Below are positions 3,277 to 30,331 of a stretch of 64,000 bases of DNA, piece by piece; the first letter of the stretch is position 1; each line of letters begins with the position of its first letter. This DNA comes from Halostella salina. GTDB taxonomy: Archaea; Halobacteriota; Halobacteria; Halobacteriales; Natronoarchaeaceae. The notes under the pieces are model-generated. The model was given only the letters and a program-made list of their open reading frames with translations, made no database searches and was not told the origin of the DNA. The translations under genes and the position numbers were made by a program. The stretch is taken from assembly GCF_003675855.1 (NCBI RefSeq), contig NZ_RCIH01000006.1, positions 1 to 64,000 on the forward strand, written 5' to 3'.

Positions 3277-3900
3277 ATGGTCCCGGAGTACGACTACTGG
3301 CTGTTCGACCTCGACGGGACGCTCGTCGACGTCGAGTCGGCCTACCGCCACGAGACCCTCTCCGAGGTCGAGGACCGCCTCGGTCTCTCCTTTACCGACG
3401 ACGAGCGCTACCTCGTCTGGCACGGGACGGACGACCACCGGTCCGCGCTCCTGCCGGACGGCCTCTCGATCCGGTCGTTCTGGGAGACGTTCGACGAGGT
3501 GGATGACCCCGTCGCCCGCGCCGAGGCGACGTACCTCTACGACGACGCCACACGGGTCGCGGAGGTCGACGCGCCCTCGGGGATCGTCACCCACTGCCCC
3601 CAGCCCGTCGCCGACGTGGTGTTCGACACCCTCGACATCCGCGACTGGTTCGAGACGATCGTCTGCTGCTCGGAGGAGGTCGGCTGGAAGCCCGACCCCG
3701 CGCCGGTCGACCGAGCGAAACGGGAGATGCAGGTTGCACACAACGGCCACCGCGGCGCGCTTGCGGGCGACGCCCCCTGCGACGTGGGCGCGGCGTGGAA
3801 CGCCGGTCTCGACGGGATCCACGTCGAGCGCCACGACCCAGACCTCCAGGGGCGGTGCGTGCTGGGTGACTACCGCGTCTCGTCGTTCGCGGAGCTGTAG
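3277..3900 (+). CDS. HAD-superfamily hydrolase (phosphatase-like)
   Basis: A 207-residue protein. Motif I is DLDGTLVD with the nucleophile Asp11 and acid/base Asp13. Motif III is the Lys in VGWKPDP, and motif IV is the acidic GDAPCDVGAAWNAG. This is the layout of phosphoglycolate-phosphatase-type HAD enzymes; the substrate is unknown. The open frame extends far upstream (2218), but that part is antisense to the FilR1 gene, and the TATA box supports the start at 3277. The last 31 bases overlap the end of the convergent MoeA-fusion gene. Confidence 0.82.
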   Translation: MVPEYDYWLFDLDGTLVDVESAYRHETLSEVEDRLGLSFTDDERYLVWHGTDDHRSALLPDGLSIRSFWETFDEVDDPVARAEATYLYDDATRVAEVDAPSGIVTHCPQPVADVVFDTLDIRDWFETIVCCSEEVGWKPDPAPVDRAKREMQVAHNGHRGALAGDAPCDVGAAWNAGLDGIHVERHDPDLQGRCVLGDYRVSSFAEL

Positions 3901-5819
3901 CCGGGCAGGTCCGCGGCGAGTTCCGGAACGCCCGACAGCGCCTCGCGTAGCTCCGCCACCCCTGCCTTCTCCGCCCGGTCCGGGTTCCCGTGCACGCGCA
4001 CCGTCTGCTCGCCGACCGGGACGAAGCCGAGCCCGAGCGTCGCCGCGGTCGCCCGGAGCCCCACGCCCGCGTCGGCCTGCCCGGCCGCGACCTTCCGGGC
4101 GGGACTCTCGACCGCGCGGACCGCCAGGTCGAAGCCGTCGATGGCATCGACGAGGTCCCGCCGGTCGACGCCGCGCTCGTCGGCCAGCGCCGCGACCGCG
4201 TTCCCGAGGCTGGTCCGCAGCCCGGAGTCGGTCGTCCGGTTGACGAGCCGCAGGTCGCGGTCGACCAGGTCGGCGACCCCCTCGACCCCCTCGGGGTTCC
4301 CCGCCGGCACGACCAGCCCCCACTCGCGGGTCCATTCGCCGAGCGAGGCGGCGTCCACGTCGCGCTCGACCGGCCCCGCGGTCACGGCCACGTCCGGCGT
4401 CCCGTCGCGCAGACGGCGCAGGCCCCCCCGGCTCCCGACCGAGAGGTACCGGGGGTTCGCCACGCCGTCGAGCAGGCGCGACAGGAGCGGGTCGTCCTCG
4501 CCGACGCCGAACAGCGACGGCGGCCGGACCTCGGGCGAGAACAGTTCGACGGTGACGCTTTCGTCCGCTGCGAGGTAGTCCGTGTCGGGGTCGACCGCGA
4601 CGACGCCGTCGGCCTCCACGAGGCTGGTCGTCGCGCCGCTGCCCTTGTCGACGGGGTAGACGAGCGTCCCCCCGTCGCCGTCCGTGACGAGGCCGACCGG
4701 CATGTACCGCAGGCGGCCCTCCGCGTACCGCTCCTGCCGGGCCATTCGGCCCTCGACCGTCGCCGTCCGCGGTTCGGGGAGGCCGGCCGCCTCGCGGACC
4801 GCCGGCGCGACGAACGTCCGGAAGATGGTGAGCGCGGAGACGGGGTAGCCCGGCAGGCCGACGTAGGCCGAACCCTCCATCCGTCCGACCAGCATCGGCT
4901 TCCCCGGCTTGACCGCGACGCCGTGGAGCAACAGCTCGCCGCGGTCCTCGACCACGTCGTACACCACGTCGACGGCGCTGGCGCTCGTCGACCCCGACGA
5001 CAGCACCAGGTCGCACTCCTCGGCGGCGGTCGTAAGCACCCGCTCCATCTCCGCCCGGTCGTCGCCGGCGTGCGGGTAGGTGACGGCCTCGCCGCCGGCC
5101 TCCTCGACGGCGCTGGCGACGGCGTAGGAGTTCACGTCGTGGATCTGGCCGCGTTCGCTGTGCAACTCCTCGCCCGGGCGCACCAGCTCGTCGCCCGTCG
5201 AGACGATGCCGACCCGCGGCTTGCCCCGAACGGGCACCTCGCCGACGCCCAGCGCCGACAGCAGGCCGATCTCGCGGGCCGTGAGGCGGGTGCCGGGGCC
5301 GAGCGCGCGCTCGCCGGCTGCCACGTCCGCCCCCGCGAGCATCACATTGTCGCCGGGCGCGACCGAGGTGCGGACGAGCACTTCCCCATCTTCCTCGCTC
5401 GCGGCCTCGCCGCTCGCGCCGTCCGTCGAGCGTGGCTCGACGCGGTCAGTTTGCTCCATCATCACCATCGCGTCCGCCCCGGGGGGCATCACCGCGCCGG
5501 TCGAGATCTCCACGGCCTCGCCGTCGCCCACCTCCACGGTCGGCTCCTCGCCGGCGTGGACCGCGCCGACCAGGTCGAGGCGCGCGGGGTCGGCCTCGTC
5601 CGCGCCGAACGTGTCCCGGGCGCGGAGCGCGTAGCCGTCCAGCGACGCGCGGTCGAACCCCGGCACGTCGAGGCCGGCGTCGACCCGCTCGGCGAGGACG
5701 CGACCGCCGGCATCGTCGATGGGGACCGACTCGGGGTCCGGGGCCAGGTCCAGCGACGCGATCGCCTCGCGGGCCTCGGCGGGCGGCGCGAGGTCGCGGA
5801 ACTCCTTGCGCTCCGTCAC
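3870..5819 (-). CDS. MoeA-type molybdopterin protein fused to a periplasmic-binding-like domain
   Basis: A 649-residue protein. Residues 1 to about 410 are a full MoeA (molybdopterin molybdenumtransferase) with GFDRASLDGYALRARDTF, STGAVMPPGADAMVMMEQTD and LPGYPVSALTIF. Residues about 425-640 resemble the PBP-like (LysR substrate/ModA-like) domain found fused to MoeA in many archaea. The family inserts molybdenum or tungsten into molybdopterin; the extra domain may sense or deliver the metal. The start is GTG (5817-5819), and 67 bases separate it from the upstream stand-alone MoeA gene, so the two are probably cotranscribed. The 3' end overlaps the convergent HAD gene by 31 bases. Confidence 0.88.
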   Translation of the reverse strand: MTERKEFRDLAPPAEAREAIASLDLAPDPESVPIDDAGGRVLAERVDAGLDVPGFDRASLDGYALRARDTFGADEADPARLDLVGAVHAGEEPTVEVGDGEAVEISTGAVMPPGADAMVMMEQTDRVEPRSTDGASGEAASEEDGEVLVRTSVAPGDNVMLAGADVAAGERALGPGTRLTAREIGLLSALGVGEVPVRGKPRVGIVSTGDELVRPGEELHSERGQIHDVNSYAVASAVEEAGGEAVTYPHAGDDRAEMERVLTTAAEECDLVLSSGSTSASAVDVVYDVVEDRGELLLHGVAVKPGKPMLVGRMEGSAYVGLPGYPVSALTIFRTFVAPAVREAAGLPEPRTATVEGRMARQERYAEGRLRYMPVGLVTDGDGGTLVYPVDKGSGATTSLVEADGVVAVDPDTDYLAADESVTVELFSPEVRPPSLFGVGEDDPLLSRLLDGVANPRYLSVGSRGGLRRLRDGTPDVAVTAGPVERDVDAASLGEWTREWGLVVPAGNPEGVEGVADLVDRDLRLVNRTTDSGLRTSLGNAVAALADERGVDRRDLVDAIDGFDLAVRAVESPARKVAAGQADAGVGLRATAATLGLGFVPVGEQTVRVHGNPDRAEKAGVAELREALSGVPELAADLPGYSSANDETR

Positions 5820-5886
5820 GCGAACCCCTCCGTGGTGAGGGTGATGTCGTCAGTCGCAGTCCCGCAGGGGAAGCGTCTGACGGAAG

Positions 5887-7098
5887 TCATGCCGACCACT
5901 CCCAGTCCTGCACGGCGACGGTCTCGCCGGCGGCGACGCCCTCGCTGTCGTCCGGGATCTCGACCCAGCCGTCGGCCAGCGCGACGCTGGAGAGGACGCC
6001 CGCCCCGCTCGCTCGGGTCGGGACGGCGACGCGCTCGCCGTCCTCGTCCGTCAGCCGGACCCGGGCGAACGTCCGGGTGCCCGGCTCGCTCGGGACCTTC
6101 CGGTCGAGCCGCGCCTCGACGGTCGGGGGGTCCCGGAGCGGCATGTTGCCCGCCCACTTCAGCGCCGGCCGGAGGAACTGCACGGCGTTGACGATGCAGG
6201 CGACGGGGTAGCCCGGGAGCATCAGCACGGGGGTGTCCGCGACGACGCCGAGCGCGACGGGATGGCCGGGCTTCACCGCGACGCCGTGGACCAGCACCTC
6301 CCCGAGGTCGTCGACGACTTCCGGGATCAGGTCGCGCTCGCCGACGGAGGAGCCGCCGGTCGTGACCACGAGGTCCTTCGTCAGGTCGCGCTGGACCGCC
6401 GCGCGCAGGGCCTCCCGGTCGTCCGTCACGACGTTGCGGTACGTGGCGCGGCCGCCCCAGCGCTCGACGTACCGGGAGGCCGTCAGCCCGTTCGTCTCGA
6501 CCACCTCGCCGGGGGCGGGGTCGCGCTGGACGAGTTCCTCGCCGGTCGGGACCACGCCGACGGTCGGCCGGTCGTAGACGGCCACCTCGTCGACGCCGAC
6601 GGACTTCAGCATGCCCAGGTCGGACGGCCGGAGCCGGTGGCCCGGCTCGTACAGCGTCTCGCCCTCGCTCACGTCCTCGCCGACCGGCGCGACGTTCTCG
6701 CCCTCGGCCACCGCGTCGAACACTTCGAGGTCGTCGCCGACCTGCTCGACCCGTTCGACCATGACGACGGCGTCGGCACCGTCGGGCAGTTCGCTCCCGG
6801 TGTGGACGCGCGTCGCCCGCTCCGGCCCCACCGCGTCGCCGGCCCGGAGCAGCGCCGGGGAGCGGTCGCTCGCGCCGAAGGTGTCGGCGGCACGCACCGC
6901 GTAGCCGTCCATCGCCGCCCGCCGGTAGTGGGGCACCGGGCGCTCGGCCGTCACGCGCTCGGCGACGACCCGCCCGTCGGCCGCCGTCAGCGGGACCTGC
7001 TCGGTGCGGTCGGTCCCAGCGACGGCGTCCCGGAGGGTCGCCCGTGCCTCGTCGAGCCGGGTGCGGTCCTTGAACCCGGCCTCGGTGAGATCGCTCAT
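5887..7098 (-). CDS. moeA: Molybdopterin molybdenumtransferase MoeA
   Basis: A 403-residue protein of normal MoeA length. Motifs include AAMDGYAVRAADTFGA, TGSELPDGADAVVMVE, VVPTGEELV, TTGGSSVGERD and LPGYPVACIVNAV. It catalyses metal insertion into adenylylated molybdopterin in the cytoplasm. It lies directly upstream of the MoeA-PBP fusion on the same strand. Paired MoeA genes are usual in archaea, possibly one per metal (Mo and W), though which does what cannot be told here. Confidence 0.92.
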   Translation of the reverse strand: MSDLTEAGFKDRTRLDEARATLRDAVAGTDRTEQVPLTAADGRVVAERVTAERPVPHYRRAAMDGYAVRAADTFGASDRSPALLRAGDAVGPERATRVHTGSELPDGADAVVMVERVEQVGDDLEVFDAVAEGENVAPVGEDVSEGETLYEPGHRLRPSDLGMLKSVGVDEVAVYDRPTVGVVPTGEELVQRDPAPGEVVETNGLTASRYVERWGGRATYRNVVTDDREALRAAVQRDLTKDLVVTTGGSSVGERDLIPEVVDDLGEVLVHGVAVKPGHPVALGVVADTPVLMLPGYPVACIVNAVQFLRPALKWAGNMPLRDPPTVEARLDRKVPSEPGTRTFARVRLTDEDGERVAVPTRASGAGVLSSVALADGWVEIPDDSEGVAAGETVAVQDWEWSA

Positions 7099-9684: not shown

Positions 9685-10044
9685 ATGTCAGCGCTGCGTG
9701 ATTCCCTGCGCGACCTGCCCGACGCCGTGTTCGCTGACCTCCTGGAGAGCGACGACGCGTACCTGCTCGTCGTCGACCTGCCCGGGGTCACGGCGGACAC
9801 CGTCGACGTGGCCGTCGACGGGGCGAGATTACGGATCGAGGCGCGGCGCGAGAAGGATATCCCCACAGAGTACCGCTACCACACGGAGGAACGGTCCCTG
9901 TTTCTCGACGCCGACCTGCCGCTGCCGCCGGACGCCACCGACGACGGCGCGGCGGCGACGGTCGACCGCGGCGTGCTCGAACTCCGACTGCCCAAGCGGG
10001 GCACCGGTGCCACCGAGGCGACGATCGAGATCACCGAGGCGTAG
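9685..10044 (+). CDS. Hsp20/alpha-crystallin small heat-shock protein
   Basis: A 119-residue protein. The alpha-crystallin core spans about residues 22-115, with VVDLPGVTADTVDVAVDGARLRIEARRE and the closing strand DRGVLELRLPKRGTG. Small heat-shock proteins bind unfolded proteins without ATP. The C-terminal I-x-I anchor is present as IEI near the end (TIEITEA). The gene ends 6 bases before the UbiB-type kinase gene, so the two are probably cotranscribed. Confidence 0.85.
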   Translation: MSALRDSLRDLPDAVFADLLESDDAYLLVVDLPGVTADTVDVAVDGARLRIEARREKDIPTEYRYHTEERSLFLDADLPLPPDATDDGAAATVDRGVLELRLPKRGTGATEATIEITEA

Positions 10045-10050
10045 CGCGGG

Positions 10051-11733
10051 GTGGTGAGCCTGGTCAACCTTCGGGCGTACTGGCGGTTTATCGTCGTCGC
10101 GCGCCAGTTCCTGCCCCTGCTCGTCGCGTACGCTCGGGACCGCCGCCGCTTCCTGTTTTTCGGCGGCCGTCGCCGGGTCGACGCCGAGACGCGTCGCCGC
10201 CGCGCGAACCGCCTGCTTGACTCGCTGCTCACCCTCGGGCCCACGTTCATCAAGCTCGGCCAGCTGCTGTCGACCCGCCCCGACATCCTCCCCCCGGAGT
10301 ACATCGAGATCCTCTCACAGCTACAGGACGAGGTGCCGCCGGCGGACTGGGACCGGGCGCGGGTCGTGATCGAGGAGGAGCTGGGCCCCGTCGACGAGGC
10401 GTTCGACGACTTCGACCGCGAGCCGATAAGCGGCGCGAGCCTCGGACAGGTGTACACCGCGAAGGTCGACGACGACCCGGTCGCGGTGAAGGTCCGGCGG
10501 CCCGACATCGAGTCGCTGGTCGAGGCCGACCTGCAGGTGCTCCGCTGGTCGCTGCCGATCCTCCTCTTTTTCATCGACGACTCCCGGTCGTTCTCGCTGG
10601 AGAACCTCGCCGACGAGTTCGCCAAGACGATCCGGGAGGAGATGGACTACGAGCGCGAGGCGGAGATGCTCCGGGAGATCCGCGGCAACTTCGCCGACGA
10701 CGACAGCATCGTCATCCCGCCGGTCGTCGAGAGCCGGTCCGGCCCGCGCGTGCTGACGATGGAGTACCGGCCGGGGACGAAGATAAACGACCTGGACGAA
10801 CTGGAAGCGCGGGACATCGACCGCACTGAACTCGCCGAGAACCTCCAGCGGGCGTACCTCCAGATGATCATCGAGGACGGCGTGTTCCACGCCGACCCCC
10901 ACCCCGGCAACCTCGCGGTGACCGACCAGGGGCAGATCATCTTCTACGACTTCGGGATGAGCGGCCGCGTCGACGACTACATTCAGGAGAAGATCGTCGA
11001 CTTCTACATCGCCGTCGCCAACCAGGACATCGACGGCATTCTCGACGCTCTCGTCGAGATCGGCACGCTGTCGCCCGAGGCCGACCGGCAGGTGATGGGC
11101 GAGGTGATGGAACTGGCCATCCAGGACGTGCGCGGCGACGACATCGAGCAGTACCGCGTCCAGCAGATCGTCGGCCAGATCGAGGACTCCATCTACGAGT
11201 TCCCGTTCCGCCTGCCGAAGAACCTCGCGCTGGTGCTCCGGGTCGCGACGGTCGTCGAGGGCGTCTGCGTGACGCTGGACCCCGAGTTCGACTTCATCGC
11301 CATCGCCACCGACTACCTCACCGAGCAGGGCTACCGCGAGGAGAGCATCCGGCAGTTCCTCGAGGGCGCGAGCGACCAGGTCCAGGAGTCGGTGCAGTCG
11401 ACGGTGCGGTCCCCGCCGAAGATAGAGCGCGCGCTGGACCGGATCGACCGCGAGAACTTCCACGTCCGGGCCGGCTTCGAGGACGACGAGGGCGTGTTCG
11501 ACAAACTCGCCAAGCGGCTCATCTACGGCCTGTTGCTGACCGCCGGCGTGCTCTCGACCGCGCTGCTGTACTCCTTCGCGACGGTCCAGTCGACGGCTGT
11601 GGCGGCGGGGTTCTCCCTGATTATGGCTGTCCTGCTGTACCGGTCCTTCCGCTCCCGGAAGGGGCTCCGAGCGACGCCGCAGTTCACCCGGCAGAACCTG
11701 AAACAGCAACAGCGCGGGAGCGAAGGCGACTGA
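10051..11733 (+). CDS. ABC1/AarF/UbiB-family atypical kinase
   Basis: A 560-residue protein. The N-terminal part has the family signature GPTFIKLGQLLSTRPD (KxGQ motif) and a QDEVPP element. The kinase-like core has GASLGQVYTAKV (Ala-rich nucleotide loop), VAVKVRRP (Lys), HADPHPGN (catalytic loop) and YDFGMSG (metal-binding DFG). Two membrane helices close the protein (about 490-535). Relatives support ubiquinone or lipid metabolism; haloarchaea use menaquinone, so a role in lipid or quinone homeostasis is an inference. The start is GTG at 10051, with a second GTG directly after. Confidence 0.88.
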   Translation: MVSLVNLRAYWRFIVVARQFLPLLVAYARDRRRFLFFGGRRRVDAETRRRRANRLLDSLLTLGPTFIKLGQLLSTRPDILPPEYIEILSQLQDEVPPADWDRARVVIEEELGPVDEAFDDFDREPISGASLGQVYTAKVDDDPVAVKVRRPDIESLVEADLQVLRWSLPILLFFIDDSRSFSLENLADEFAKTIREEMDYEREAEMLREIRGNFADDDSIVIPPVVESRSGPRVLTMEYRPGTKINDLDELEARDIDRTELAENLQRAYLQMIIEDGVFHADPHPGNLAVTDQGQIIFYDFGMSGRVDDYIQEKIVDFYIAVANQDIDGILDALVEIGTLSPEADRQVMGEVMELAIQDVRGDDIEQYRVQQIVGQIEDSIYEFPFRLPKNLALVLRVATVVEGVCVTLDPEFDFIAIATDYLTEQGYREESIRQFLEGASDQVQESVQSTVRSPPKIERALDRIDRENFHVRAGFEDDEGVFDKLAKRLIYGLLLTAGVLSTALLYSFATVQSTAVAAGFSLIMAVLLYRSFRSRKGLRATPQFTRQNLKQQQRGSEGD

Positions 11734-11794
11734 CCCGGCCGACCTTCGCACGCGAACCCCGCCGCCTAAGACCGATCCGACCGACCACCCCGCC

Positions 11795-12865
11795 ATGGAG
11801 ATCGCGGAGTTCGGACTGGAGCGCTGGTTCGCGGAGCACGAACACGAGGCCGACATCATGCTCGCCGAGAGCGGGATCCGCAGTCTCGACGCCGACCGGT
11901 TCGACACCGACCCGGGGGAACTTGGCTACGTCATCCCCACGAACGGCGACCCCGACCTCCGGGCGGAGGTGGCCGACCGCTACGGCAGAGACGCCGACGA
12001 GGTGCTGTTCACCTGCGGCGCGCAGGAGGCGAACTTCCTCGCATTCCTCTCGCTGCTCGACGAGGGCGACCACGCCGTCGTCGTCACGCCGACGTATCAG
12101 GCGCTCCACAGCGTCCCCGAGGCGCTCTGTGACGTGACGCGCGTCCCGCTGTCGCCGCCGGACTGGGAACTCGATCCGGACGCCGTGGCCGACGCCATCC
12201 GGCCCGAGACCGAGGTGGTCGTCGTCAACAACCCGAACAACCCGACGGGGCGCTACCACCCCGAGGCGACGGTCCGGGCGCTGTACGACATCGCGGCCGA
12301 CGCGGACGCGTATCTGCTCTGCGACGAGGTGTACCGGCAGCTGGCCGAGGATCCGCTCCCGCCCGTCGCCAGCATGGGGCCGCGGGGGATCAGCACGTCG
12401 AGCGTGACGAAGGCCCACGGGCTCGCCGGCCTTCGCTTTGGCTGGGCGGTGCTGCCCGAGGAACTGGTCGAAACGGCGTGGAACTGGAAGGATTACACCA
12501 CCATCTCGCCCTCCACGTTCGGCCAGCACGTCGCCCGACAGGCGCTCGGCGAGCAGGAATCGGAGATCCTCCGCGAGAACCGCGACCACGCCGCGCGGAA
12601 CCGGGAGCGGGTCGCGGCGTTCGCCGACGACTACGGCCTCGACTGGCACGACCCCGTCGGCGTCAACGGGTTCCTGACGACCCCCGACGGGTTCGACGAC
12701 GCCCGGGACTTCTGTACCGCAGTCGTCGAGACGGAGAGCGTCGTGCTCGCGCCCGGCGACCTGTTCGGTTACCCCGACCGCTTCCGGATCGGGTTCGGAC
12801 TGCCGGCGGACGAACTTGACGAGGGACTCGACCGCGTCGGCCGGTGTATCGCCCGGCACGCGTAA
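11795..12865 (+). CDS. PLP-dependent class I aminotransferase
   Basis: A 356-residue fold-type I aminotransferase. Motifs are NNPNNPTGRY, LCDEVYRQL (Asp binding the PLP nitrogen) and SSVTKAHGLAGLRFGW, where Lys206 is the Schiff-base lysine. Residues at the N-terminus are short compared with aspartate aminotransferases, as in many archaeal homologs. The amino acid substrate cannot be read from sequence. The ATG at 11795 follows the UbiB-type gene by 61 bases. Confidence 0.87.
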   Translation: MEIAEFGLERWFAEHEHEADIMLAESGIRSLDADRFDTDPGELGYVIPTNGDPDLRAEVADRYGRDADEVLFTCGAQEANFLAFLSLLDEGDHAVVVTPTYQALHSVPEALCDVTRVPLSPPDWELDPDAVADAIRPETEVVVVNNPNNPTGRYHPEATVRALYDIAADADAYLLCDEVYRQLAEDPLPPVASMGPRGISTSSVTKAHGLAGLRFGWAVLPEELVETAWNWKDYTTISPSTFGQHVARQALGEQESEILRENRDHAARNRERVAAFADDYGLDWHDPVGVNGFLTTPDGFDDARDFCTAVVETESVVLAPGDLFGYPDRFRIGFGLPADELDEGLDRVGRCIARHA

Positions 12866-25288: not shown

Positions 25289-25385
25289 ACGCACCCTACG
25301 GGCTCCGGACGGGAAGCGTTGTGGGTCGGACCGCGTTCGGGACCGACGGGAAAAACACTTGTCCGACATCCGGATAATGGCCTGT

Positions 25386-25958
25386 ATGTCCCGCTGGTCC
25401 CGCAGGCACACCCTCCACTGCTGTGCCGGCCTGCTCGCGGCCGCCGCCGGTTGTAGCGATGCGGACCGGAGCGACCCGCCGACGACCTCCGGCGAAGCGG
25501 TCGACGGCTACGAGACGCACTCCCTCCGCTCGGACGGACGGATCGTCGCCGACGAACGCGACGACGGACCGAACGGGAGGGTGACGCTCAACACGCTGCT
25601 GCAGTCCCCCGACCACTCGCTCCGGTTCGTCGCCGAACTCGACGGCATCGACGCCGCGCGGGCGTTCGTCGACGAGACGCGGTTCGGCGAGGGGTCGGTT
25701 CTGGTCAGCCAGGGCAGGATCGGCGACTGCTACCGCCGGGAAGTCGCGTCGGTGAGCCGCTCGGACGGGTCGTTCTCGGTCGACTTCTGCGATGTGGTCC
25801 GGGACGCCTCCGTCGCCTGTTCGGAGGACGAGACGGCGGTGCAGGCGACGTTCGTCCGGCTCCCGTTCGCGTTCGAGAACGGGACGGAGAGCTACTCGGT
25901 CGGGTCGGGCGGCGACTGTCGTCGGGCCGTGCGACCGAACGGAGGTGAACGGGCGTGA
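25386..25958 (+). CDS. Predicted lipoprotein, unknown function
   Basis: A 190-residue protein with a twin-Arg-like N-terminus (SRRHTLHCC) and lipobox AAGC (Cys23). The mature part is polar with three or four cysteines that could form disulfides (DCYRRE, FCDVV, VACSED, GDCRR). No family is recognised. The alternative start at 25377 adds three residues. Its last four bases overlap the start of the next gene (GTGA), so it opens a tight operon with the genes to 30112. Confidence 0.65.
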   Translation: MSRWSRRHTLHCCAGLLAAAAGCSDADRSDPPTTSGEAVDGYETHSLRSDGRIVADERDDGPNGRVTLNTLLQSPDHSLRFVAELDGIDAARAFVDETRFGEGSVLVSQGRIGDCYRREVASVSRSDGSFSVDFCDVVRDASVACSEDETAVQATFVRLPFAFENGTESYSVGSGGDCRRAVRPNGGERA

Positions 25959-27328
25959 GCGGCAGCCCTCCCACGACCGACACGACCGTGGACGGGGAGC
26001 GGACGGCCGCGGCCACGGGCCGTCGCAGGTTCCTCGCCGCCGCGGGAAGCGCCACCGTGGCCTCAGTGTCGGGCTGTTTCGGTCTCTGGAGCGACGACGC
26101 CGACGCGCCGTCGTACGACGCCGACGCGCTCCGGTCGGTCGCCGCCCTGCCGACGCCGAAGCTTCCGGAGACGCTGCCGGTGTCCCCGACGCCGACGTAC
26201 CGCGAGGAGGTGCGGGAGCGCGTTGCCGCTCTGCTCGAGCCGATCCCCGAGCCGCTCGCCGCCGAGGACGTTCCCAACGAGGCCGTCCGGACGCGTATCG
26301 CCGAGGAGCGCGACCGCGCCCGGTCGGCCCTCGACGACTCCGTCGACGCGGCGACACCCCTGTCGGCGCTCGGATCGCTCCGGTACGCGCGCCACAGCGC
26401 CGCGGACGCGAGTGCGGTGTACGCCGCCGGTCGGGACGAACTGACGCTGGCGGCGGTGCTCGACCGCCGCGAGGCAGTGCGGTCGGAGCTGGACGACCTC
26501 CGGGACCGGTTGACCTACGAGGGCGGGGACCCGGTCGCGGCGCTCGCCACGTTCGCCACGGTCGAGCAACACGTCGCCCGGGCGGCGGACATGCTCGACA
26601 GGGCCGACGAGACACACGAGTCCGGCGTCTTCGCGGTCGGCGATGCCGCCGGAACGGTGGAGTGGGCACGCGCCCGCGTCTCGGACGCGGCCCACCTCCA
26701 CGGCCGCTACGTGGCGACGGTGGACGAGCCGATGGAGTGGCGCGACCGCTTCGTCGAGGTTGGCCGCGCGCTCGCCGCGGACGCCCGCGCCCGCTTCGGC
26801 GACGTGTCGAGCGGCTACGCCGAGGACCCCGACGGGGAGTTCGACCGCGACATCGCCGACGCGCCCGCCGAGGACGTCGTCCGGGACGCGTACCTCGCGG
26901 CGGACTCGGTCGCGACGACGGTGCCCGACCCCGCTGACCGCCCGGCGTTCGCCGCCTTCGCCGGGGCCGCCGCCGACCGCGACCTGCGCGCGTTCGAGCG
27001 GGTCCGGTCGTCGATCGCCGACGGGGCGTACCAGCGACCAGAGTCGGTCGCCGCCGTCCGGACGGCGAAGCTCGACGCCGTCGAGGCGGTCGAGCGAGCC
27101 CGGGCGGACGACCCGCTCACGCGGCGGCTCCTCCGACCCGCGGCGATCGACCTCCGGGGCGGGGACCAGTACCTCGTGCGGTTCGGCGACGTGAACGACA
27201 ACCCCGCCGACGTGGCGAACGCGTTCGCCGAGTACGCCTACGCCGCCGCACGCGCCGAGGCCGCCCCCGGCGCGGCCGCGCGCCTCCGTGGCCTGCTCCG
27301 GGGGGCGTCGGACGACCCGGACCACTAA
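25955..27328 (+). CDS. Tat-exported lipoprotein, helical, unknown function
   Basis: A 457-residue protein with Tat motif GRRRFLAAAG and lipobox VSGC (Cys41). The mature protein is almost entirely predicted helix, rich in Ala, Arg, Asp and Glu, with repeated 'AARAEA' and 'VRERVAALL' segments that suggest a helical-bundle or repeat fold on the outer face. No catalytic motif is seen. The start is GTG, overlapping the previous stop. The next gene begins 27 bases after its end. Confidence 0.65.
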   Translation: MSGSPPTTDTTVDGERTAAATGRRRFLAAAGSATVASVSGCFGLWSDDADAPSYDADALRSVAALPTPKLPETLPVSPTPTYREEVRERVAALLEPIPEPLAAEDVPNEAVRTRIAEERDRARSALDDSVDAATPLSALGSLRYARHSAADASAVYAAGRDELTLAAVLDRREAVRSELDDLRDRLTYEGGDPVAALATFATVEQHVARAADMLDRADETHESGVFAVGDAAGTVEWARARVSDAAHLHGRYVATVDEPMEWRDRFVEVGRALAADARARFGDVSSGYAEDPDGEFDRDIADAPAEDVVRDAYLAADSVATTVPDPADRPAFAAFAGAAADRDLRAFERVRSSIADGAYQRPESVAAVRTAKLDAVEAVERARADDPLTRRLLRPAAIDLRGGDQYLVRFGDVNDNPADVANAFAEYAYAAARAEAAPGAAARLRGLLRGASDDPDH

Positions 27329-27354
27329 ACGGTCCCCCGTGGTACCACGTCCCC

Positions 27355-28161
27355 ATGGACAGTACGGACCCGAGCGACCTGCGCGGCGTCACCGTGAGCG
27401 GCGACCCGGACGGGTCACCCGTCGTGTTCGTCCACGGCGCGACGCTGACGCGTGCGCAGTGGCTCCCGCAAACGGCGGCGCTCTCCGGCGTTCGCGCGAT
27501 AACGTTCGACCTGCCCGGCCACGGCGAGCGCGCGGACGAGACATTCCGGTTCGAGCGCGCGCTGGACCTGCTCGACCGTGTCGTCCGCAAAGTCGCGGAC
27601 GGGAGCGCCGTCGTCGTCGGGCTTTCGCTCGGCGGCTACCTCGCCACGGCCTACGCCGCGGACAACCCCGACAGGGTCGACGCGCTGGTGATCTCCGGCA
27701 GCAGCGCTAACCCGACCGGCCTGCTCGGCGTGCTCACCCGGATCGTCGGCGCGCTCTCGCGGCTTGCAAGCCGGCTCGGACCGGTCCGTCGCGCGTACAG
27801 TTCGCTCTGGGAGCGCGCCGTCGAGGCGTTCGACATCGAACCTGACCACCGCGACGCCATCGTCGATGGCGGGTTCTATCTGCGCCCGTTCGGCGAGGCG
27901 GGCCGCGACCTGGCGGGCCGGGACTTCCGCGCCGAGTTCGGCCGCTACCCCGGACCGGCGCTCGTGCTCAACGGCGAGGACGACGCGCTCGCCCGGCGCG
28001 GCGAGGACGCCCACGCCGCGGCCACGACCGACGCACGGGTCGAGGTGGTCGAGGACGCCGGCCACACCTGCAACCTCCACCGCGCGACGGCGTACACCGA
28101 GGCCGTCGAGCGGTTCTACCGGGAGGCGGTGCCGACGGAGGTCGGCCGTGGCGGGTCCTGA
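27355..28161 (+). CDS. Alpha/beta hydrolase
   Basis: A 268-residue alpha/beta hydrolase. Oxyanion region VVFVHGATLTR, nucleophile elbow GLSLGG (Ser), an acidic LNGEDDALA and a late histidine in EDAGHTCNLHRA form the likely triad. There is no signal peptide, so it is cytoplasmic, unlike its neighbours. Substrates could be esters or small amides. The stop lies 14 bases inside the next gene, and the strand and spacing place it in an operon with three lipoproteins. Confidence 0.85.
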   Translation: MDSTDPSDLRGVTVSGDPDGSPVVFVHGATLTRAQWLPQTAALSGVRAITFDLPGHGERADETFRFERALDLLDRVVRKVADGSAVVVGLSLGGYLATAYAADNPDRVDALVISGSSANPTGLLGVLTRIVGALSRLASRLGPVRRAYSSLWERAVEAFDIEPDHRDAIVDGGFYLRPFGEAGRDLAGRDFRAEFGRYPGPALVLNGEDDALARRGEDAHAAATTDARVEVVEDAGHTCNLHRATAYTEAVERFYREAVPTEVGRGGS

Positions 28162-30112
28162 CGCCGGCCGACTCTCGCGTCGCGCCTGGCTCCGGACGTC
28201 CGGCGGGACGCTGGCCGGTGCGATGGGGAGCGGCTGTCTGGCGACGCCGCGGAACGGTGAGACGGCCGCCGAGGCGGCCGGACAGGACGGCGACGGCCGC
28301 GAGGACTTCATCTGGGTGAGCGGCGCGATGCAGACCGTCGAGCGTGTCCGCGACAACGCCCTGGCGTTTGCGGCCCGGAACGACCTCGCGGCCGTGTTGA
28401 CGGTGGGCGACCTGACGCCCCCCGACCTGCTCGACGACGTGCGCGCTCACTTCGACGCCGCGGCCGAGTTCGGGATCGACCTGTGGCTCAACACCGGCAT
28501 TCTCCGGGTGCCAGCGGCCTCGGTGGTCCAGGACGACGACGTTCGGGCGCGACACCTGGACAGCCTGCGCTCGGTCGTGGAGCTGTACCACGACCGCTTC
28601 GGCGACGGCCGGATCGTCCTCTGGCAGGAAGCACCGGTGCCGGGACGGTGGACCGAGAACGGGCAGTGGACCGACGAGTCCGTCGAGAACCTGCTGTCGT
28701 ACGGCCCGACCGTGTTCGCGGCCCAGCGCGCGGCGATCAGGTCGGTATCGACGGGGATCGACGTGGGGATCTTCCCGCATTTCCCCTACGTGGTCGACTC
28801 GAAGCAGCCGGACGCCTTCCCGGAGCTGGTCGACGCCATCCGCGAGCGCGACGCCGCGCCCGACTTCGTTTTCACCGACTTCTATCGGGGCTGGTACGAG
28901 AAGGACGCCGGGGCGGCCCCTGCCACCGCCGCCGTCCGGAGTCTCATCACGAACGCACGGGCGACCGTCGACGCGCCCGTGTTCTTCCTCGCTCAGGCCC
29001 ACACGATCAACCCGAACCACACACCGAGCCGGGTGGCGATGCGTGAGGACCTGCGGACAGCGACTGACGCGAACGTCGACGGCCTCGGCTGGTACTCCCG
29101 GAACCGCTACGTCCCGACCGAGGTCGGCTTCGACCCCTTCGTCCCGAACCGTGGCGACCCCGACTCGTTCGCCGACATCGATGCGACCTGCACCTTCACC
29201 GTCGCCCGGGACCGCTACGCGTACGCCTGGACGGCCACCCATCCGACGCGGGACGGGTACGACCTCGACGAAAAGTTCGACCTCTGGATTCACACCGACG
29301 GCGCTGGCTTCTACGACCATCGGATCTCGCTCCGAACCGCCGACGGCGTCTGGGCGTTCGTCGGAGACGCAACGGGCTACATCGACGGCGACCACGGCGA
29401 CGGTCGCGGACCGCGACTCGGCGGCCCGCAGGTCACCGCCTTCCGGGGACTCGACCGCGAGCGGTTCCTCGGCCGGGCGCTCGACCTCCGGGTCGAGTCC
29501 CGCGGCGACGCGACGCTCCGAACCGTCTCCGTCCTCCCCTTTGCCCCGGACGCGTTCGTCACCGAGCCCCGCGCCGTCGCGCTGGCAGCGACGGGCGCGG
29601 AGACGCCCTGCTGTCTCGGCCGCCGGAGGCTCGACCGCCGGCTGACGGCCGGCGGGGAGACCACCGTTCGCGTCCCGGTCCCGCGGGACGCGCCGGTGCG
29701 CCATCCCGGCGCGCTCGTCACGCCGGACCACGCCGGCGTCCGGGCGGCGCTCCGCGACGCCGAAGCGGACGCCGGATTCGACCCGCTTTCCCGCTTCGAT
29801 CTGTGGGTCCGCTGCGCCGATCCGGGGGCGCTCGACGCCGTCCGGGTTGGCGGACGCGACGCGCTCGAAGCGGCCCCGGCGGTCGCGCGGGGGGACGCTG
29901 CCGCCGTCTGCTACGGCGCGCCCCGGTCGCTGCTGGACGGCGAGGGCGCGCTCGCTGCGACGGACGTCGCTGGCGACGCCGGCGTGGCTGCGCTGTACGC
30001 GATGCCGTACGGCGGTCCGGGCGCGTTCACGCCGCCCGACCGCGCTGCAGACCTCGTCGCGGCCGACCCCGACGCCGCGGCGACGTTCGCGCTGGCGGCC
30101 ACCGCGCGCTGA
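28148..30112 (+). CDS. Tat-exported lipoprotein, glycosidase-like, unknown activity
   Basis: A 654-residue protein with Tat motif SRRAWLR and lipobox GSGC (Cys30). The mature N-terminal half has an alternating strand/helix pattern with motifs LWLNTGILR, VLWQEAPVPGRW, DFVFTDFYRGW and GLGWYSRNRY, which suggest a TIM-barrel, glycosidase-like fold with acidic catalytic candidates (Glu in WQEAP, Asp in FTDF). The C-terminal half looks like beta-sandwich modules. I recognise no family. The start is GTG at 28148, overlapping the hydrolase by 14 bases. Confidence 0.65.
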   Translation: MAGPDAGRLSRRAWLRTSGGTLAGAMGSGCLATPRNGETAAEAAGQDGDGREDFIWVSGAMQTVERVRDNALAFAARNDLAAVLTVGDLTPPDLLDDVRAHFDAAAEFGIDLWLNTGILRVPAASVVQDDDVRARHLDSLRSVVELYHDRFGDGRIVLWQEAPVPGRWTENGQWTDESVENLLSYGPTVFAAQRAAIRSVSTGIDVGIFPHFPYVVDSKQPDAFPELVDAIRERDAAPDFVFTDFYRGWYEKDAGAAPATAAVRSLITNARATVDAPVFFLAQAHTINPNHTPSRVAMREDLRTATDANVDGLGWYSRNRYVPTEVGFDPFVPNRGDPDSFADIDATCTFTVARDRYAYAWTATHPTRDGYDLDEKFDLWIHTDGAGFYDHRISLRTADGVWAFVGDATGYIDGDHGDGRGPRLGGPQVTAFRGLDRERFLGRALDLRVESRGDATLRTVSVLPFAPDAFVTEPRAVALAATGAETPCCLGRRRLDRRLTAGGETTVRVPVPRDAPVRHPGALVTPDHAGVRAALRDAEADAGFDPLSRFDLWVRCADPGALDAVRVGGRDALEAAPAVARGDAAAVCYGAPRSLLDGEGALAATDVAGDAGVAALYAMPYGGPGAFTPPDRAADLVAADPDAAATFALAATAR

Positions 30113-30202: not shown

Positions 30203-30331
30203 ATGCCAGAAATCACGGTGTCCGACAGCCTGTACGACAAACTGGAAGAGGCGGCCGAGGACAGCGAACTCGACGACGCCCTGTGGGAGATGGTGTACCT
30301 GTTCGAGCGCGGCAACAACCCCGCCGAGTAA
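30203..30331 (+). CDS. 42-residue haloarchaeal small protein
   Basis: A short acidic protein beginning MPEITVSDSLYDKLEEAAED and ending ERGNNPAE. The strand-helix-helix pattern resembles small ribbon-helix-helix or antitoxin-like haloarchaeal proteins, but it is too short to be sure. A TATA box at the right distance and acidic composition support it as a real gene. Its stop lies one base before the end of the convergent YchF gene. Confidence 0.65.
   Translation: MPEITVSDSLYDKLEEAAEDSELDDALWEMVYLFERGNNPAE

Follow-up and report, generated by a model that had tools for sequence, protein, structure and literature searches.

A predicted Tat lipoprotein pair and a predicted exported glycosidase-like barrel protein lie head to tail in Halostella salina

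Do four closely packed genes of the haloarchaeon Halostella salina form a single machine, and what could the last of them do outside the cell? The genes, here called A to D, lie in the first 64,000 nucleotides of contig NZ_RCIH01000006.1, a stretch that we call the window. A preliminary description, made from the letters of this DNA, took them for one operon of three lipoproteins and a cytoplasmic hydrolase that might process an extracellular polymer. Our analysis favors, with a probability of roughly 0.55, two independent two-gene units standing head to tail, A-B and C-D, with D as a glycan-cleaving barrel of the glycoside hydrolase clan A (GH-A) type outside the cell.

All four genes are real. 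Compared with the nearest relative, the Halostella genome G002, the nonsynonymous rates (dN) of A, B, C and D are 0.31, 0.30, 0.13 and 0.14, and the synonymous rates (dS) are 0.53, 0.49, 0.41 and 0.43, which indicates purifying selection in each. Because dN lies below dS, we regard them as constrained genes and not as chance frames of GC-rich DNA. Amino-acid identities to G002 are 58.6, 60.4, 79.5 and 77.1%, respectively. The dN of A and B is about twice that of C and D. At the DNA level, the stretch that holds A together with the front portion of B (window 25343-26955) is 72-74% identical to G002, the matched stretches before it 84-91%, and the 10 kb from 26020, which hold B, C and D, 82%. 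The spacing given in the preliminary description is accurate: the overlap is 4 bases for A-B and 14 for C-D, and the distance from B to C, described as within 27 bases, is 26.

The distribution of the genes speaks for two units. D is present in all five Halostella genomes. B is found in only two of them, the window's genome and G002, and A in the same two; neither was found in the other three. Among genomes with D, 6 of 23 carry B, versus 153 of 270 without D (Fisher p 0.008, relatedness ignored), the opposite of what a joint function would lead one to expect. The claim that the four genes work as one functional unit is not supported, and there is evidence against it. Since A-B and C-D are distributed differently, the four-gene row is most likely a local juxtaposition common to two close species.

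Gene pair A-B is a module in its own right. Both proteins have twin arginines, as expected for the twin-arginine translocation (Tat) pathway, followed by a lipobox, AAGC in A and VSGC in B, with 15 and 16 residues, respectively, between the second arginine and the cysteine. These signals match the haloarchaeal Tat-lipobox pattern described in PMC2945643, where the cysteine follows the arginines by 12-21 residues and the box most often reads LAGC. In alignments of 21 sequences for each protein, the lipobox cysteine is invariant, as are C115, C145 and C178 of A and P107-N108 and Y427 of B. Judged by eye from its sequence, B is mostly helical. No Pfam or NCBIfam family matches A; for B, Pfam gives nothing and NCBIfam one chance-level row. 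Searching Pfam with aligned relatives of both returned weak rows only (the strongest HTH_25, 0.0005, for one B member), and sequence and profile searches of the PDB brought nothing of weight (best E 0.037 for A and 0.2 for B).

The pair is widespread and tightly kept together. Of the 293 haloarchaeal genomes sampled, 159 have B and 139 have A. At the best 20 places for A, the window's included, B adjoins in all 20; at the best 20 places for B, A adjoins in 19 by tblastn and in the twentieth by clustering of open reading frames. When 21 loci were clustered in this way, with start codons partly chosen by hand, A lay directly upstream of B in 19, and the 4-base overlap was repeated in 14 of those 19. 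Five plasmid regions inspected, from Haloferax, Halolamina, Haloarcula and two Halorussus, annotate the pair as hypothetical, and no relative of B was found in viral contigs. A recurrent neighbor was sought in the 21 loci, and besides A the widest group comprised 4 loci. On plasmids of Haloferax lucentense (L106) and Halorussus pelagicus (L108), a gene for a flavin adenine dinucleotide-dependent oxidoreductase stands directly after A-B, in a group of 3 of the 21 loci; the Halolamina plasmid NZ_CP054588.1 holds two A-B copies, tail to tail, at about 26.8-30.7 kb (L097/L107). A-B is therefore a two-gene unit, widespread in haloarchaea, whose products are both predicted to be Tat lipoproteins, and the tight pairing suggests that the two proteins may act together at the cell surface.

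C matches the alpha/beta hydrolase model PF12697 with 86.5 bits against a cut-off of 26.3, and no export signal is visible by eye, in agreement with the cytoplasmic hydrolase of the preliminary description. Its GLSLGG elbow and its NGExD and AGHT motifs are kept in all five Halostella genomes; going by general knowledge of such motifs, we take them to hold the Ser-Asp-His triad. The frames of C and D overlap in all five (by 14, 14, 4, 8 and 8 bases). C adjoins D in two of 12 named D loci, L011 and L017, which probably correspond to the Halostella genomes G004 and G003, and in 25 clustered D loci the C group consists of only the four Halostella relatives. In Halostella, the genes of a predicted cytoplasmic alpha/beta hydrolase and a predicted exported barrel protein are linked through overlapping frames, a tie of gene order.

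What kind of protein is D? An AlphaFold2 model built on 12 sequences, with a mean predicted local distance difference test score (pLDDT) of 71, shows a triosephosphate isomerase (TIM) barrel, whose eight strand/helix repeats span residues 54-367, followed by a beta-rich part. The barrel is well supported, and its best matches among solved structures are clan GH-A-type glycosidases (GH5, GH164 and GH53). The preliminary description had staked its glycosidase-like reading of D on a TIM barrel or a solute-binding fold, and the model has the former, so that this structural guess holds. In Foldseek, the best barrel rows are beta-1,4-galactanases (6gp5, E 1.1e-8, and 1ur0), followed by GH164, GH5_18 and GH10 enzymes. 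Alignment of the barrel with VIA ranks the GH5_18 enzyme 7lqx first (Z 21.2, root-mean-square deviation 3.5, 282 residues aligned), near 7bob (Z 21.1), the GH164 structure 6t7g (Z 20.4) and a haloarchaeal beta-galactosidase, 6lvw (Z 19.9); the best 50 rows are all glycosidases, GH1 included, with Z of 19.1-21.2 over about 270-290 residues.

The likeness to each of these families has its limits. The GH5_18 beta-mannosidases (7lqx, BlMan5B) and Op5Man5 share with D the barrel, at Z of about 20-21 over some 280 residues, and a glutamate right after strand 4; unlike them, D has no profile similarity to haloarchaeal GH5, no conserved glutamate on strand 7 and no match to PF00150. The galactanases 6gp5 and 1ur0, which we take to be GH53 endo-beta-1,4-galactanases, top the Foldseek rows, but the TM-score on the target is 0.63, identity is 14% and PF07745 does not match D. 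The GH164 beta-mannosidase Bs164 has the barrel (Z about 20) and the strand-4 glutamate in common with D, but its nucleophile, Glu-297 according to PMC7105311, is on strand 7, where D has Q283.

This last difference leads to the active site. An alignment of 26 D sequences leaves 59 of the 654 positions invariant, 47 of them in residues 48-371. Invariant residues gather at the strand ends: W159-x-E161 (strand 4), H211-F-x-Y214 (5), D244-x-Y246-R247-G248 (6), H285-T286 (7) and Y316-x-R318 (8). The only fully invariant acids within 48-371 are D79, E161, D244, D329 and D355. Enzymes of clan GH-A share two conserved glutamates (PMC6637243); strand 4 carries the acid/base and strand 7 the nucleophile (PMC7105311). 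D has the barrel and the strand-4 glutamate; the strand-7 glutamate is not conserved. Strand 7 of D, PVFYLGQSHT or PVYYLGESHT, resembles by eye the PAYLGEFG of haloarchaeal GH5, and from this likeness and the predicted strands we place residue 283 at the nucleophile position. Well-supported branches of the tree force at least three switches between Glu and Gln there. Because this residue varies among Glu, Gln and Gly, it probably does not serve as the nucleophile, whereas E161 and D244 are constant throughout the 26 sequences. Such a pattern would suit either a changed pair of catalytic residues or a protein that binds its ligand.

In our preferred reading, D is predicted to act on glycans after export, as an enzyme of a family not yet classified whose GH-A-like active site has changed. 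D would most likely bind and cleave glycan outside the cell, in a presumed site formed by the dense group of invariant residues where the strands end (W159-E161, H211, D244-Y246-R247, H285 and Y316-R318), with E161 as the proposed general acid. Since the strand-7 position is usually Gln, catalysis would need a different carboxylate, for which D244 of strand 6 is the likeliest candidate, or would run off the classical two-Glu retaining path. A more specific version, that D is the founding member of an exported, glycan-cleaving haloarchaeal enzyme family that kept the GH-A barrel and the strand-4 acid while the second carboxylate moved from strand 7 to the strand-6 aspartate and the mechanism changed with it, is tentative and less likely than not. 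Coordinates of the genes and of these residues are given in Table 1.

Table 1. Positions in the window of the four genes and of the predicted domains and key codons of D
Feature	Window position	Strand	Description
Gene A	25386-25958	+	190-aa predicted Tat lipoprotein; start and stop codon present
Gene B	25955-27328	+	457-aa predicted Tat lipoprotein; start and stop codon present
Gene C	27355-28161	+	268-aa alpha/beta-fold hydrolase; start and stop codon present
Gene D	28148-30112	+	654-aa predicted Tat-type exported protein; GH-A-like barrel and beta-rich C-terminal part; start and stop codon present
D (beta/alpha)8 barrel, residues 54-371	28307-29260	+	Predicted; eight alternating strand/helix units
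D E161 codon	28628-28630	+	Invariant Glu (26/26) in WQEAP, right after predicted strand 4 (155-160); GH-A acid/base position
D D244 codon	28877-28879	+	Invariant Asp (26/26) in DxYRG, near the end of strand 6
D Q283 codon	28994-28996	+	End of strand 7, where the GH-A nucleophile is presumed to sit; Gln in 18, Glu in 7 and Gly in 1 of the 26 sequences
D beta-sandwich, residues about 375-510	29270-29677	+	Weak PLAT/LH2 likeness

The part of D behind the barrel, folded alone, reaches a pLDDT of 81 and starts with a beta-sandwich. Its matches, which we presume to be PLAT/LH2 domains, belong to lipoxygenases and lipases; they have a similar sandwich, with no match in sequence and with VIA Z of 7.6 at best (root-mean-square deviation 3.2 Angstrom, 100 residues aligned; Foldseek E 2.2e-4), and by the tool's own warning a Z below 8 may reflect a mere common arrangement. 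None of the best 50 VIA rows for this part covers D beyond residue 511. The PLAT-like sandwich could keep D at the surface or on its substrate.

How D leaves the cell, and whether it stays attached, can be read in part from its N terminus. In D, twin arginines are followed, 17 residues on, by GSGC, with a glycine at -3. Twin arginines are likewise seen in the other distinct D sequences compared, apart from the fragment L020, which cannot be judged. In this relative, from the metagenome-assembled genome QS_5_70_17 (about 10001-11970), the frame is broken, perhaps by an assembly error. By eye, 11 of the other 25 distinct D sequences with an intact frame show a clear [LVI][AT]GC lipobox. From these signals, D is probably exported, and in some lineages probably lipid-anchored. 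In the window, its status as a lipoprotein is weak, because none of the four other Halostella sequences has the cysteine. Of the three lipoproteins of the preliminary description, two, A and B, are hence safe, and of its "Tat or Sec" signals we saw Tat in A, B and D, and Sec in no case.

D escaped every family search. It has no Pfam (E up to 1) or NCBIfam match, nor a sequence match in the PDB by single sequence or by profile, so that the earlier remark on the lack of a recognizable family holds. Twelve members of the family gave chance-level Pfam rows only (E up to 10), from four families, PF00150 not among them. The GH5 model PF00150 and the GH42 model PF02449 match neither D nor anything else in the window's genome, and the GH53 model PF07745 matches neither D nor any of 79 genomes searched, the window's included, in a search whose control matched 3 of 14. 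In G002, a GH5-type gene (PF00150; G002:C2:438608-439402, minus strand) precedes the D locus by some 14 kb. The defence library gave no match. Literature titles on the family of D were not found either, in mostly title-level listings that are no proof of absence.

The family is narrowly distributed. A search of 293 genomes from the order found D in 23, representing 11 of 87 genera, and 294 genomes across the phylum gave three matches, all in the same order. A contig scan returned 12 D loci, all with haloarchaeal titles, the scan being pattern-based, so that distant relatives may be missed; no relative was found in viral contigs or in plasmids. Around 25 D loci, recurrent neighbors form groups of at most 7 loci, mostly from one lineage, not counting D itself and a frame on its opposite strand.

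Several findings weigh against two independent units with a glycan-cleaving D. On the side of the units, the co-occurrence count of A-B and D disregards phylogeny, the genome search scored four or five candidates per genome, one of the Halostella genomes without A-B (G003) is 89% complete, and the lengths of the gene overlaps hinge on the start codons chosen. On the side of D, the window's own protein has Q283, and hhalign of D with haloarchaeal GH5 gives a probability of 6%, aligned off the active site. Pyruvate carboxylase is among the Foldseek matches to the barrel. In VIA, a Z of at least 8 is attained by 998 of the 999 aligned chains, which gives the barrel good support but makes the GH-A label a matter of rank. 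The pLDDT falls below 50 at residues 162-166, 285-289 and 318-354, near the presumed active site. Outside Halostella, the neighbors of D show no clear glycan link: by eye, those at L016 and L150-L154 resemble genes of serine and methionine/threonine biosynthesis, and an epimerase-type gene lies within 9 kb of D in six other loci.

Three other accounts of D have to be weighed. D could be a catalytically dead GH-A-like barrel that lost its strand-7 nucleophile and binds glycan or another surface ligand. The Gln or Gly found at position 283 in 19 of 26 sequences, with its repeated switches, would suit such a protein, as would a sandwich with weak likeness to PLAT and to CBM60 (vCBM60 2xfd, Z 6.8). 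Dead active sites usually drift more, and the concentration of 47 of the 59 invariant residues in the barrel region, with carboxylates, histidines and arginines at the strand ends, argues against it, which makes this account unlikely but still the foremost alternative. Because the loops at 162-166 and 285-289 are modeled with low confidence, the model itself does not choose between a binding protein and an altered catalytic pair.

Somewhat less probable is a barrel enzyme with a different kind of chemistry, a lyase, transglycosylase, isomerase or esterase, having only the barrel in common with glycosidases. The relation is by fold only, with no GH5 profile match, nearly every aligned chain passes the VIA threshold, and Cwp19 of Clostridioides difficile ranks 7 and 12 in Foldseek. 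Against this stand the glycosidases that fill all of the best 50 VIA rows and the WQEAP after strand 4, which by eye resembles the NEP of haloarchaeal GH5. More doubtful again is the idea that our strand mapping misplaced the true nucleophile and that D is a retaining GH-A glycosidase of the ordinary kind: the loop at 285-289 is poorly modeled and 7 of 26 sequences do have Glu at 283, but near strand 7 there is no other conserved glutamate. Finally, one extracellular polymer-processing operon of all four genes, for which their common strand, overlaps and short gap and the same gene set and order in G002 would speak, is very improbable, given that three of five Halostella genomes keep C-D with no A-B found, and that A-B stands free elsewhere and is rarer in genomes with D; the four-gene polymer-processing unit of the preliminary description falls apart into separate modules by distribution, and the lipobox of D is not conserved in Halostella.

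Other features of the window deserve brief mention. After D, a frame of 42 codons (30203-30331, plus strand) reads MPEITVSDSLYDKLEEAAED... in the sequence. Two adjoining genes at 3870-7098 on the minus strand presumably encode paralogues of the molybdopterin biosynthesis protein MoeA, and at about 16.2-20.2 kb on the plus strand we recognize what we take to be genes like those for eIF5A, an agmatinase relative and deoxyhypusine synthase, close together.

These results have implications for the cell surface of haloarchaea. Exported glycosidases of these organisms matter for the turnover of surface glycans and for how polymers are used in brines, and surveys based on Pfam or NCBIfam would miss D because it matches neither. 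If it is true that an aspartate on strand 6 replaced the glutamate of strand 7, D would offer an example from nature of an active site that changed in a well-studied fold. A-B, a predicted lipoprotein pair without a name, is carried by roughly half of the sampled haloarchaeal genomes. Hence, the locus is a lead on undescribed archaeal surface proteins and not one new four-gene machine.

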